A stretch of DNA of 64,000 nucleotides. It comes from Ottowia thiooxydans DSM 14619 (lineage in GTDB: Bacteria; Pseudomonadota; Gammaproteobacteria; Burkholderiales; Burkholderiaceae_C). Below the pieces are notes generated by a model, which searched no databases, was not told the origin of the DNA, and was given only the letters and a program-made list of their open reading frames with translations. Location: positions 1-64,000 of the forward strand of contig NZ_AUGX01000035.1 in the NCBI RefSeq assembly GCF_000422885.1, in the 5' to 3' direction. A program made the translations under genes and the position numbers. Shown here in pieces: positions 20,468 to 30,275 of the stretch. How positions within the stretch are numbered: the stretch's first letter is position 1; each line of letters begins with the position of its first letter.

Positions 20468-21580
20468 TTACTTGAGAGGCTTCTCGTACTTTGAAACTGC
20501 AGTTGCGGGAATAGTGACGCCAGGAATAAATTTTTCTAATTCAAACGTCAGATTTTTTGCAGAAGGACCATTTTTCCAAACCGATAACTCGTCTACCCGA
20601 ATCCGCATCACTCGCTTTTTTGAACGGGAGAACTGATTCAACCCGGAGCCTAGCCTTACAACTCCTCGCCTTGAGGAATTGACTCCCAAATCCATGATGA
20701 ATCTTCTAATTGGTTGAATGTTTTTCTTGTGATGAAATGGAAAATCTATCGATTCTAAAGCGGAAAAGTATGATTTCTGCATAATACCCGAATCATCGAA
20801 AAAATCAGAGCCAAGAATATTTTTAGATAGTGTTGTTCTTGTTTTATCGGAAGCCTCGATGAAATTTAATATAAAACCCCTGGCTATCTTTGATTCGTAA
20901 TTTACAAATTTATATATATTTTCAACATCATAATATTCATAGCTGTAGTCTTCTATGAATTCTATTGGCTTTCCTAATGATGAGGCGAATATAATTGCGC
21001 TAGAGAAATTGCAAGTTATGATTTTTTCATACTTGGAGAGTAAATTAAGTAGTCTGCCGTAAAATTCGGCATCGCCTTCTCCTGCGCTGACTATCCCAAC
21101 ACCATTATTTTGAAAAAAATCTATTGATCCCTCAATGTCTCCTCTATGCTTCAGTAAGATATCGACATTTCGGAGGTCATGGTTTTTCCTTACTTTTTCA
21201 AGTAGAAGCCTGTCATTTTCTTTTCCGGGTGGAGGGGAAATTACGAGCGCTCTTTCTCCCGCAGCGGCCTCTCGATTATCACAAAGCAATAACCAGGGGT
21301 GCGGCAGACAGATAGAAGGTTTTATTTTCGACGCCTCGCGGTGAATATTTTTGTTGTATGCCCAGTGAATTGGCTCAATGTAGTTAACATCCAAAGGCTC
21401 AAAGCAATGGCCAAAATCAACGCCATGGGATAAGCTAAGTGGCGTGGGAGTGTCAAAAGGGAGGCGTAATGAATTATTTAAAATCTTCCCTGCGCCCATT
21501 TTTGCGCTGGATTCGTAAAATTTGGAATGCCGTTTAAATTTTTCGAAAATTTTATCTTCTGATGGGTTGAGTTTTTTCAT
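20468..21580 (-). CDS. A+T-rich orphan, possible glycan-processing protein
   Basis: Protein of 370 residues with no family I recognise. The ATG at 21580 overlaps the TGA of pseI (ATGA), so it is translated within the operon; the longer frame from 21595 is less likely. It is lysine-, asparagine- and isoleucine-rich and its DNA is visibly richer in A+T than both neighbours, suggesting recent acquisition. The centre has NFSSAIIFASSLGKPIEFIEDY, which resembles the donor-site loop of some GT-B capsule transferases (S/T-rich, SLGKP). A glycosyltransferase role is only a guess. No signal peptide or membrane segment is evident. Confidence 0.7.
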   Translation of the reverse strand: MKKLNPSEDKIFEKFKRHSKFYESSAKMGAGKILNNSLRLPFDTPTPLSLSHGVDFGHCFEPLDVNYIEPIHWAYNKNIHREASKIKPSICLPHPWLLLCDNREAAAGERALVISPPPGKENDRLLLEKVRKNHDLRNVDILLKHRGDIEGSIDFFQNNGVGIVSAGEGDAEFYGRLLNLLSKYEKIITCNFSSAIIFASSLGKPIEFIEDYSYEYYDVENIYKFVNYESKIARGFILNFIEASDKTRTTLSKNILGSDFFDDSGIMQKSYFSALESIDFPFHHKKNIQPIRRFIMDLGVNSSRRGVVRLGSGLNQFSRSKKRVMRIRVDELSVWKNGPSAKNLTFELEKFIPGVTIPATAVSKYEKPLK

Positions 21581-22629
21581 TCCATCATGTCCCAAGATAT
21601 TGGCTCTCCTCTATGGACCTCACGAAGTACGCGGCGTCCTAGCACTGCGGTTAAGTGCTTTGGGGCTAGTCCGAAGCCTGGGCGAATGCTTTGAATATCA
21701 CCAAGTGTAATGATGCTGCCTGCAGACAAGTTTTTCACTATATAAAGTGATCTGCGAAACTTGGCATTGCCTTTTTCGCTAGATTTCAAGCCATAGTCCA
21801 CTTTACCGAGTGACTGCCAAGCTGTTTTTGCACCTAGACAAAGTTGAGTTAGTTCAGGCGGCTCGAGCGAAAAACTGTCGTCTGGCCCACCACCGTGACG
21901 ACTTAGCGTGAAATGCTTTTCAATGATCGAGGCACCCAACACCACACTAGCGATGGCAGTTGTGTTGTCCAGGGTATGGTCCGATAAACCGGTAACCAAT
22001 CCGAAGCGGTTCATCATGTCCGGGATGGTGCGAAGGTTGTAATCTTCGGCTGGAGCAGGGTAGCCGCTAACGCAATGAAGGATGGCCAACTCTTTACAGC
22101 CGGCTGCCTTTGCGGCATCTATAGCTTCCTGAATTTCCTCAGCATCGGCCATACCGGTCGAAATGATCATCGGCTTGCCCGTGCTGGCCACGTACTTGAT
22201 CAACGGCAAGTCAACTGCCTCAAACGAAGCGATCTTGTAGGCCGGAGCATTCAAATCCTCAAGGAGATCGACGGCGGTGTTGTCGAACGGGGAACTGAAG
22301 ATGGTGATATTTAACTCGCGCGCGCGGTTGAACAGAGGCTTGTGCCATTCCCAAGGGGTGTAGGCGGCCTGATAGAGCTGATGGAGTGTTTTGCCGTCCC
22401 ACAGGCCACCGTGTATTTGGAATTCCTCCGAATCGCAGTCTAGAGTGATAGTGTCCGCTGTATACGTCTGTAGTTTGACGGCATCCGCACCGGTCTCGGC
22501 TGCCGCTTCGATCAGCTGAAGGGCTCGTTCCAGTGAACCGTTGTGGTTGGCAGACATCTCGGCAATCACGTAGGGATGATGTGCCGTGCCGATAAGGCGA
22601 CCCGCGATACGGATTTCAGGTGTTTTCAT
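21577..22629 (-). CDS. pseI: pseudaminic acid synthase
   Basis: NeuB-family enzyme of 350 residues condensing 2,4-diacetamido-2,4,6-trideoxy-L-altrose with phosphoenolpyruvate to give pseudaminic acid. The N-terminal TIM barrel has IAEMSANHNGSLERAL, VKLQTYTADTITLD and HCVSGYPAP. The GGGPDDSFSLEP stretch distinguishes PseI from sialic or legionaminic synthases. A C-terminal antifreeze-like SAF domain spans about 290-350. Pathway partners pseB, pseC, pseF and pseG lie upstream in the same operon. It overlaps the next gene by 4 bp. Confidence 0.95.
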   Translation of the reverse strand: MKTPEIRIAGRLIGTAHHPYVIAEMSANHNGSLERALQLIEAAAETGADAVKLQTYTADTITLDCDSEEFQIHGGLWDGKTLHQLYQAAYTPWEWHKPLFNRARELNITIFSSPFDNTAVDLLEDLNAPAYKIASFEAVDLPLIKYVASTGKPMIISTGMADAEEIQEAIDAAKAAGCKELAILHCVSGYPAPAEDYNLRTIPDMMNRFGLVTGLSDHTLDNTTAIASVVLGASIIEKHFTLSRHGGGPDDSFSLEPPELTQLCLGAKTAWQSLGKVDYGLKSSEKGNAKFRRSLYIVKNLSAGSIITLGDIQSIRPGFGLAPKHLTAVLGRRVLREVHRGEPISWDMME

Positions 22630-22657
22630 TTTGGTTCCCGTACGGTTGGAGACTTGG

Positions 22658-29270: not shown

Positions 29271-29273
29271 GGC

Positions 29274-30275
29274 TTACTCCTCTGCAAGGCGGTTGAACTC
29301 GGCAATACCCGGGACGTCAAGGAAATGCGGGTTGGTACCGGATTCATATTGGAATCCCGGTGCTACATCCCGACCCTGTTCACCAAGGCCATTCACACCA
29401 AAATTATTACCCCGACTAGTGAATGTGATCGATGGCTGAATGACGTAGTGATCATCAAATTCCAAAGTCAATCGTGAGTCATCGGAAGGGCACATGGTTT
29501 CATGTAGCTTTTCCCCGGGACGAATTCCGATGACCTTATACGGAAGATCCGGGGCGACAGCTTGCGCCAGTTCGGTAATGCGGATGGACGGTATTTTGGG
29601 AACGAAGATCTCACCGCCGCTCATGCGTTGGAAGTTGCGCAGCACGAAGTCCACGCCTTGTTGCAGCGAAATCCAGAACCGCGTCATATTGACGTCAGTA
29701 ATAGGCAGGTGGGTTGCCCCCGAATCCAGCAAACTACGGAAATAGGGCAATACTGACCCGCGGGAGCCCACCACGTTACCGTAACGTACAACCGCGAATG
29801 AGGTGTCATATCCGCCGGCCAGGTTGTTCGCTGCCACAAACAGTTTGTCGGAGGCCAGCTTGGTTGCTCCATACAGATTGATAGGGTTAGCAGCCTTATC
29901 AGTGGACAAAGCTATTACCTTCTTGACGTTGTTAGCGAGCGCCGCGTGAACGACATGCTCAGCACCATAAATGTTGGTTTTGATGCACTCCATGGGGTTG
30001 TATTCGGCGGCAGGAACCTGCTTCAGGGCTGCAGCATGGATCACATAGTCGACTCCGCGCATGGCCTGCACCAACCTGTCCTTGTCGCGTACGTCGCCTA
30101 TGAAGTAGCGCATAGCTGGAGCGAAGAAACGCTGCTGCATTTCATATTGTTTGAGCTCGTCTCGTGAATAGACGATCACTCGGCGAGGCTTGTACTTCTC
30201 GAGCAAAGTCTTGACGTACTTGTGGCCAAACGATCCCGTGCCTCCTGTAATCAGGATGGATGAGTCATCAAACAT
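29274..30275 (-). CDS. pseB: UDP-N-acetylglucosamine 4,6-dehydratase (inverting)
   Basis: SDR-type enzyme of 333 residues beginning the pseudaminic acid pathway by 4,6-dehydration with C5 inversion of UDP-GlcNAc. The start at 30275 gives [21 protein letters not shown]; a longer frame to 30311 overlaps the flippase gene more and is not preferred. NAD(P)-binding GGTGSFG, STDKA and [14 protein letters not shown] are all present. Length matches Campylobacter PseB (334). Confidence 0.96.

Follow-up and report, generated by a model that had tools for sequence, protein, structure and literature searches.

A nine-gene operon in a 64,000-nucleotide stretch of the genome of Ottowia thiooxydans DSM 14619 (contig NZ_AUGX01000035.1, positions 1 to 64,000; here called the window) encodes a pathway for pseudaminic acid (Pse) in which the acetyltransferase PseH is missing. 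We put at about one half the probability that this operon makes a variant of cytidine monophosphate (CMP)-Pse in which the amine made by PseC is not acetylated by a PseH of the GNAT type, a protein of the WbqC family (PF08889) forming an amide there instead. WbqC is the best candidate for acylating that amine.

A pseudaminic acid operon without PseH

The nine genes are coupled on the minus strand (window positions 21577-30275), running from pseB to pseI with 4-base overlaps or short gaps. From 30275 down to 21577 the order is pseB, pseC, pseF, a flavoprotein gene, pseG, a methyltransferase gene, a gene for a NanM-type methyltransferase, wbqC and pseI (Table 1). Overlaps of 4 bases join PseC/PseF, PseF/flavoprotein, flavoprotein/PseG and PseG/methyltransferase, and all genes of the pseB-pseI interval are accounted for. 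An earlier note on this DNA had placed pseB, pseC, pseF, pseG and pseI here, in one block with a flavin adenine dinucleotide (FAD) enzyme, two methyltransferases and a WbqC-like protein, and all of them were found with Pfam and NCBIfam profiles, four of the Pse proteins passing the curated cut-offs and PseG scoring 86.9 bits against 153.55. The operon resembles the pathway to CMP-Pse5Ac7Ac of Campylobacter jejuni and Helicobacter pylori (PseB-C-H-G-I-F) in PseB, PseC, PseI and PseF, but differs from it in the absence of PseH, in a PseG below cut-off, and in the additional flavoprotein, two methyltransferases and WbqC.

The PseH model TIGR03585 has no match in the operon, as the earlier note had claimed, and none in the whole genome assembly (7.05 Mb in 78 contigs, 99.37% complete, with the window on contig C28), either at E<=1e-3 or at 1e-6. 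Of 14 control genomes, 13 gave a match in the same search and 1 a match over the cut-off, so that the model is not too strict. The idea of an unlinked PseH elsewhere in the genome found no support in this search, leaving other GNATs as candidates. A PseG-PseH fusion that would hide PseH was also considered and rejected, since PseG has 333 amino acids (aa) from its ATG and is matched by the PseG model only, in contrast to the PseG proteins with a GNAT signal in two other genomes (495 aa in G342, 529 aa in G503). The flagellar islands of Aeromonas (PMC7874193) and Geobacillus (PMC5109656) resemble the window in having pse genes without pseH, according to the available parts of both papers; such a fusion is offered as a reason in Aeromonas, whereas PseG of the window has no GNAT part. 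The word WbqC is absent from the Aeromonas paper.

Absence of PseH is in itself ordinary, because 31 of 61 sampled PseI loci have no TIGR03585 match (E<=1e-6) within 20 kb of PseI, 30 having one, and because loci without pseH have been published for Aeromonas and Geobacillus, as have pse genes without a clear PseH for Shewanella oneidensis (PMC3765264, as far as its available part goes). The gap is therefore not remarkable by itself. The sample comprises 398 genomes of the phylum, with a PseI match at E<=1e-95 in 67 and over the cut-off in 62; the 61 loci leave out five genomes with only below-cut-off PseI, the second below-cut-off matches in G360 and G390, and G424, which was omitted, like G668, G721 and G779, from the genome scans behind these counts.

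The 31 loci without a nearby PseH are the window and 30 fetched stretches, some ending at contig ends; in four of the latter (G020, G376, G607, G325) our longest-open-reading-frame picker hid PseI, and an acyl enzyme could be hidden likewise. Six of the 31 contain a formyltransferase by a home-made hidden Markov model (HMM; G020, G377, G508, G342, G322, G326), which PF00551 of Pfam confirmed in all four loci run, and one of these (G342) also has the GNAT signal inside PseG. WbqC lies beside the pse genes in four (G000, G234, G025, G501) and the long PseG with a GNAT-like signal in one (G503), while in the other 20 the pse genes are scattered, the contig ends, or the HMMs used recognised no acyl enzyme.

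Four of the formyltransferase loci (L107, L108, L110, L112) are like the window in having no TIGR03585 match near PseI and another kind of N-acylating enzyme between pseG and pseI, but they carry PF00551 instead of WbqC and their PseG is far above cut-off; they are possible makers of N-formyl Pse. Two of them (L107, L108) have a PIG-L-like gene as well. The place of PseH seems to be exchangeable, the amide step being filled by a GNAT, a formyltransferase, an ATP-grasp ligase or WbqC.

WbqC as a candidate for the acylation step

Flavoprotein and WbqC are also found together in three further loci without PseH from the order to which the window belongs, and in flagellar glycosylation islands of other bacteria, more than half of which retain a weak GNAT. 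The one in the same genus (G259) has the gene order of the window; the one in the same family (G234) contains PseB, PseC, PseF, PseG, a methyltransferase, a 412-aa flavoprotein, WbqC and PseI, next to genes read as flagellar; and the third (G025, same order) contains PseB, PseC, NanM, PseF, flavoprotein, methyltransferase, WbqC, PseG and PseI. Every gene from PseB to PseI could be named in all three, and WbqC is the sole gene left for the acyl step. No PseH match was found at 1e-6 in G259, a genome that is 78% complete, and the flavoprotein of G234 is distant from that of the window (53 bits to our home-made HMM; Pfam DAO and amine oxidase). WbqC was found within 20 kb of PseI in 6 of the 61 loci, compared with about 0.14 expected from random placement in 4-Mb genomes, a figure that ignores the clustering of sugar genes.

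The flavoprotein itself is rare. At E<=1e-20, and counting the genome of the window, it was found in 2 of 250 genomes from the order and in 3 of 398 from the phylum; at E<=1e-15 it was found in 20 of 295 genomes from the family of G284. A scan of a contig collection rendered at least 25 loci. Among the matches listed, five run along the greater part of the protein (Endozoicomonas, Colwellia, a Betaproteobacteria metagenome-assembled genome (MAG), Pseudoalteromonas and a Herbaspirillum MAG) and the other 20 cover the first 33 to 82 residues only, that is, the FAD-binding start. A set of 25 distinct flavoprotein loci comes from 26 rows, since L029 and L079 are the same contig (same length, identical GNAT protein) and were counted once. 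WbqC is present in 13 of the 25, and genes read as Maf, flagellin, FliD or FliS in 19.

Among the 378 genomes sampled from the phylum, 86 contain WbqC. Its neighbourhood was analysed in 40 loci from 39 of these genomes, hand-picked across families with related genomes included, a sample that is neither random nor independent; the gene was called in 38 of them, L137 and L139 being dropped because it was not. In 25 of the 38 loci, a DegT aminotransferase (home-made HMM) is encoded no more than two genes from WbqC and on its strand, compared with a mean of 11.9 and a maximum of 23 in 5000 shuffles of gene positions inside the individual loci, the common gene orders being DegT-WbqC and DegT-PIG-L-WbqC. 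Since WbqC is found near aminotransferases in many unrelated loci, it can be argued that it acts on a newly made amine. At several loci, including the three in Table 1, the WbqC and DegT genes are adjoined by a pair of ca. 320-aa proteins of similar sequence (WRKLGKIFDP...); the reading of such pairs as subunits of an E1 dehydrogenase was dropped once the sequences were examined.

An AlphaFold2 model of WbqC built from 14 sequences has a mean predicted local distance difference test (pLDDT) score of 94.4. When 999 of the 1000 best chains from Foldseek were aligned to it with VIA-align, BshC (4wbd) came first, with Z 13.5 and a root-mean-square deviation of 3.4 over 224 of 241 residues. The rows that follow, with Z no higher than 7.4 (phosphopantetheine adenylyltransferases, aminoacyl-tRNA synthetases and pantoate-beta-alanine ligases), fall within the range that the tool calls common, and BshC stands well above them. 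As modelled, WbqC therefore shares the overall fold of BshC, and it would also share with it the supposed formation of an amide on an amino sugar; BshC differs in being more than twice as long, in its unrelated substrate and in showing no detected similarity by sequence profile. Common descent is not supported by such profiles: the search with the WbqC profile found no relative among PDB sequences (two chance-level rows only), and sequence homology to BshC was dropped when neither this search nor hhalign gave anything. At E<=1e-3 the protein matched only WbqC in Pfam, with no PF10079 (BshC), and no further BshC turned up when viral contigs were scanned. Six residues (D30, R42, Y165, Y199, Q201 and D214) are identical in all 52 aligned WbqC sequences. 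Homologues of WbqC were also observed on twelve viral contigs (IMG/VR, L090-L101), with 27-38% identity to the window protein; L101 was omitted from one alignment (A3). Our literature search found no published function for WbqC or for such a flavoprotein, and no paper joining Pse with WbqC.

Several results weigh against this role of WbqC. A GNAT of cluster 12 is also present in 7 of the 13 loci with flavoprotein and WbqC, and an eighth locus (L077 of G855) has a GNAT, with WbqC just beyond the fetched stretch. Three of these GNATs were scored against PseH (cut-off 93.1) and reached 30.5, 32.8 and 38.1 bits, and for that of L029 no NCBIfam model scored better than PseH, so that the GNATs of WbqC islands could be divergent PseH. 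Unlinked GNATs occur in two of the parallel genomes, G234 (55 bits against PseH) and G025 (67 bits). The rule that WbqC excludes a GNAT near PseI was rejected as unsupported, given the coexistence of both in several islands and a GNAT in 1 of 6 loci with WbqC as against 29 of 55 without it (Fisher p 0.195). Another PseH-less flavoprotein locus (L022 of G147) has an ATP-grasp gene and no WbqC. DegT directly adjoins WbqC in 11 of the 38 loci, a count not exceeding that of the shuffles (mean 6.1, maximum 16). With regard to the fold, Foldseek returned no PDB match for the WbqC model at E<=0.001, and hhalign of 52 WbqC with 4 BshC sequences, a comparison of weak power with only four BshC, gave a probability of 0.3, with 0.1-2.2 for 12 controls. 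BshC itself is a putative cysteine ligase that would add Cys to glucosamine-malate (GlcN-malate), with adenosine diphosphate (ADP) in the crystal, and its activity had not been shown in vitro as of 2015, according to the part of PMC4360819 available. The weakest points are the loci that have both WbqC and a GNAT and the missing kinship with BshC at sequence level. The proposal of the earlier note that WbqC acylates N4 is supported in part: the likeness to BshC, the closeness to DegT and the three parallel loci speak for it, and the GNATs in 7 of 13 loci and the missing sequence link to BshC against it.

It is somewhat unlikely that the product is ordinary Pse5Ac7Ac, with an unlinked divergent acetyltransferase, either a GNAT or a hexapeptide protein like PglD/NeuD, acetylating N4, and with WbqC, the flavoprotein and the methyltransferases doing no more than decorating the sugar or making a neighbouring one. 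The genome contains 16 Acetyltransf_3 matches (E<=0.1), of which 13 exceed the cut-off and none lies on contig C28, and 7 NeuD/PglD-like matches, all below cut-off (best, 131.7 bits against 160.8); PseH over cut-off and PseI are on separate contigs in G522, G519 and G607; and the islands with both WbqC and a GNAT point in the same direction. No GNAT of the genome, however, reaches E<=1e-3 against TIGR03585, and three candidates whose surroundings were inspected sit in other amino-sugar or aminotransferase neighbourhoods: the GNAT on C39 adjoins genes read as RmlB, RmlD, RmlA and a DegT aminotransferase, and on both C41 and C4 a hexapeptide gene adjoins an aminotransferase-like one, all three being poorer candidates for the pse pathway. 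The low score of PseG, as in most other WbqC loci, also argues against an ordinary product.

PseG, the flavoprotein and the predicted product

The PseG proteins of seven WbqC loci score 86.9 (window), 95.1, 155.5, 159.9, 88.0, 96.7 and 76.4 bits against TIGR03590, five of them below the cut-off and two just above, whereas those of the four formyltransferase loci reach 277.9, 295.2, 325.2 and 319.2 bits; the comparison covers these two groups of loci. The low scores fit a PseG that handles another acyl group, or they may reflect descent.

The flavoprotein resembles UDP-galactopyranose mutase (UGM; UDP, uridine diphosphate), the profile of five homologues matching chain 4dsg_A over 393 positions (3-395). 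Its structural model, with a pLDDT of 74.3 that is only fair, has its best matches in UGM and protoporphyrinogen oxidase. It differs from UGM in lacking PF03275 (GLF) in a Pfam search at E<=1e-3, a domain that the UGM of the window has. By manual count, R176 and R326 of the window protein, both invariant in the alignment of the family (A1), correspond to residues 179 and 330 in chain 4dsg_A, which we take to be the diphosphate-binding arginines R176 and R327 of Trypanosoma cruzi UGM; the tyrosine that is presumably Y395 of UGM is a phenylalanine in the window protein, and a histidine at 56 is kept in four of the five rows of A1. Since the two presumed diphosphate-binding arginines are kept, the substrate is likely to be a nucleotide-diphosphate sugar, and a furanose product before PseG makes little sense.

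In an improbable alternative, WbqC and the flavoprotein serve a different nucleotide sugar, attached to Pse or placed elsewhere in the same polysaccharide, and accompany Pse loci while leaving Pse itself untouched. In favour of this, the UGM resemblance suggests a furanose-forming step, and relatives of the flavoprotein occur in stretches where no PseI was seen (L032, from the Herbaspirillum MAG, and L089) and in loci read as legionaminic-type (L085, L087). The window, G259, G234 and G025, on the other hand, hold no aminotransferase between PseB and PseI, except PseC, that WbqC could follow.

If WbqC does act on the PseC product, it would form an amide at N4, which is N7 of the final sugar, and would do so as a BshC-type amide ligase joining an amino sugar to an activated carboxylate rather than by transfer from acetyl-CoA. 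The divergent PseG would then remove UDP from the differently acylated sugar, and PseI and PseF would complete the pathway. The flavoprotein would probably act at the level of a nucleotide-diphosphate sugar, and the two methyltransferases would probably place O-methyl groups on the sugar or its acyl substituent, comparable to the methylated and probably mono-N-acetyl Pse derivative on Shewanella flagellin. The product is most likely a mono-N-acetyl Pse whose N7 carries an acyl group other than acetyl, perhaps an O-methylated one.

A sugar of this kind has a precedent in Shewanella oneidensis, for which the available part of PMC3765264 describes a probable mono-N-acetyl Pse-like sugar bearing a partly methylated group of 236/250/264 Da in an organism said to lack PseH. 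Its sfmABCDE cluster is like the operon of the window in having no clear PseH orthologue and in containing a methyltransferase. The additional genes there differ, encoding a thiamine pyrophosphate enzyme, a protein like 3-oxoacyl-(acyl carrier protein) reductases and an ATP-grasp protein, and Shewanella is said in that text to lack clear PseG, PseI and PseF, PseI and PseF being clear in the window; WbqC is not named in its main text. A direct equation of the two operons was dropped for the difference in additional genes. That N4 keeps its free amine past the PseI step or on the polymer, to be modified late or left free as mono-N-acetyl Pse, WbqC having another role such as a stabilising one, is quite improbable: a mass of 274 Da in Shewanella flagellin is probably mono-N-acetyl Pse, though it bears a further group (PMC3765264, available part), but the standard pathway acylates before removal of UDP (PMC5109656, available part) and WbqC lies near aminotransferases in many unrelated loci.

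Acylation of the PseC product by WbqC can be extended, tentatively and with less confidence than for the window itself, to the family: WbqC proteins may be BshC-like, ATP-dependent ligases that acylate the fresh amine of 4-amino and other sugar nucleotides, replace PseH or LegH in nonulosonate loci and, together with a UGM-like flavoenzyme, give rise to undescribed N7-acyl nonulosonic acids. Flagella and capsules are coated with pseudaminic acids, which phages and immune systems recognise. Should WbqC acylate such amines, a function could be given to a protein family that is frequent among polysaccharide genes, many seemingly incomplete loci would be explained, and pseudaminic and legionaminic acids with non-acetyl groups would become predictable from sequence.

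Neighbouring genes and comparison loci

The coordinates of the operon, of neighbouring genes and of features in comparison loci are collected in Table 1.

Table 1. Coordinates and supporting matches of the genes and loci discussed (window positions unless a locus is named)
Feature	Position	Strand	Basis or remarks
pseB, UDP-GlcNAc 4,6-dehydratase (inverting)	29274..30275	-	TIGR03589, 537.2 bits (cut-off 407.75); ATG at 30275
pseC, aminotransferase giving UDP-4-amino-4,6-dideoxy-AltNAc	28110..29270	-	TIGR03588, 550.4 bits (cut-off 423.5)
pseF, CMP-pseudaminic acid synthetase	27415..28113	-	TIGR03584, 330.4 bits (cut-off 205.7)
UGM-like flavoprotein, 446 aa	26078..27418	-	profile (5 homologues) against 4dsg_A, E 9.3e-17; best match of model 4dsg
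Divergent UDP-sugar hydrolase, pseG-like (333 aa, counted from ATG)	25080..26081	-	TIGR03590, 86.9 bits (below cut-off 153.55)
Class I S-adenosylmethionine methyltransferase (cluster 9)	24472..25083	-	Pfam Methyltransf_25, 28.4 bits; recurs in flavoprotein/WbqC/PseG loci
NanM-type putative sugar O-methyltransferase	23403..24464	-	TIGR04371, 246.5 bits (cut-off 44)
WbqC-family protein, 241 aa, candidate N4-acyl (amide) ligase	22658..23383	-	PF08889, 196.4 bits, E 7.5e-58 (cut-off 21.3)
pseI, pseudaminic acid synthase	21577..22629	-	TIGR03586, 503.6 bits (cut-off 340.25)
370-aa protein	20468..21580	-	no Pfam/NCBIfam match at thresholds used; ATG overlaps pseI stop by 4 bases
True UDP-galactopyranose mutase	17309-18412		PF03275; eight genes downstream of the UGM-like flavoprotein
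Formyltransferase gene(s) between pseG and pseI	L107 7049-8454; L108 10331-11666; L110 10198-10842; L112 10270-10917		one or two genes; no PseH-like match nearby
Flagellar island of Betaproteobacteria MAG	L022 69-9537		NanM, ATP-grasp, methyltransferase, SpsF-like nucleotidyltransferase, flavoprotein, PseB/C/G/I-like genes
WbqC directly after LegC-like aminotransferase	L085 6695-7390; L087 6630-7340		flagellar loci read as legionaminic-type
Pair of ca. 320-aa proteins next to WbqC and DegT	L145 4052-5986; L157 6784-8709; L168 6723-8653

The island of L022 contains neither a cluster 12 GNAT nor WbqC, and a search of the genome at 1e-6 gave no PseH. The two loci read as legionaminic-type (L085, L087) also contain a PIG-L protein, a NeuD-like gene and a member of the same flavoprotein family, with no cluster 12 GNAT.

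The gene for the 370-aa protein is probably the next gene of the pse operon, and its product is perhaps a recently acquired transferase for the sugar. The operon is surrounded by genes for an ABC transporter, a methyltransferase, an acyltransferase-3/SGNH protein, a nucleotide sugar dehydrogenase, UGM, a HAD-type protein and a glycosyltransferase, because of which the region looks like one for a surface polysaccharide rather than a flagellar one. It thus holds two UGM-related flavoenzymes. As for base composition, the stretch from 20468 to 21580 has a G+C content of ca. 0.45, compared with 0.53-0.60 in most of its surroundings.

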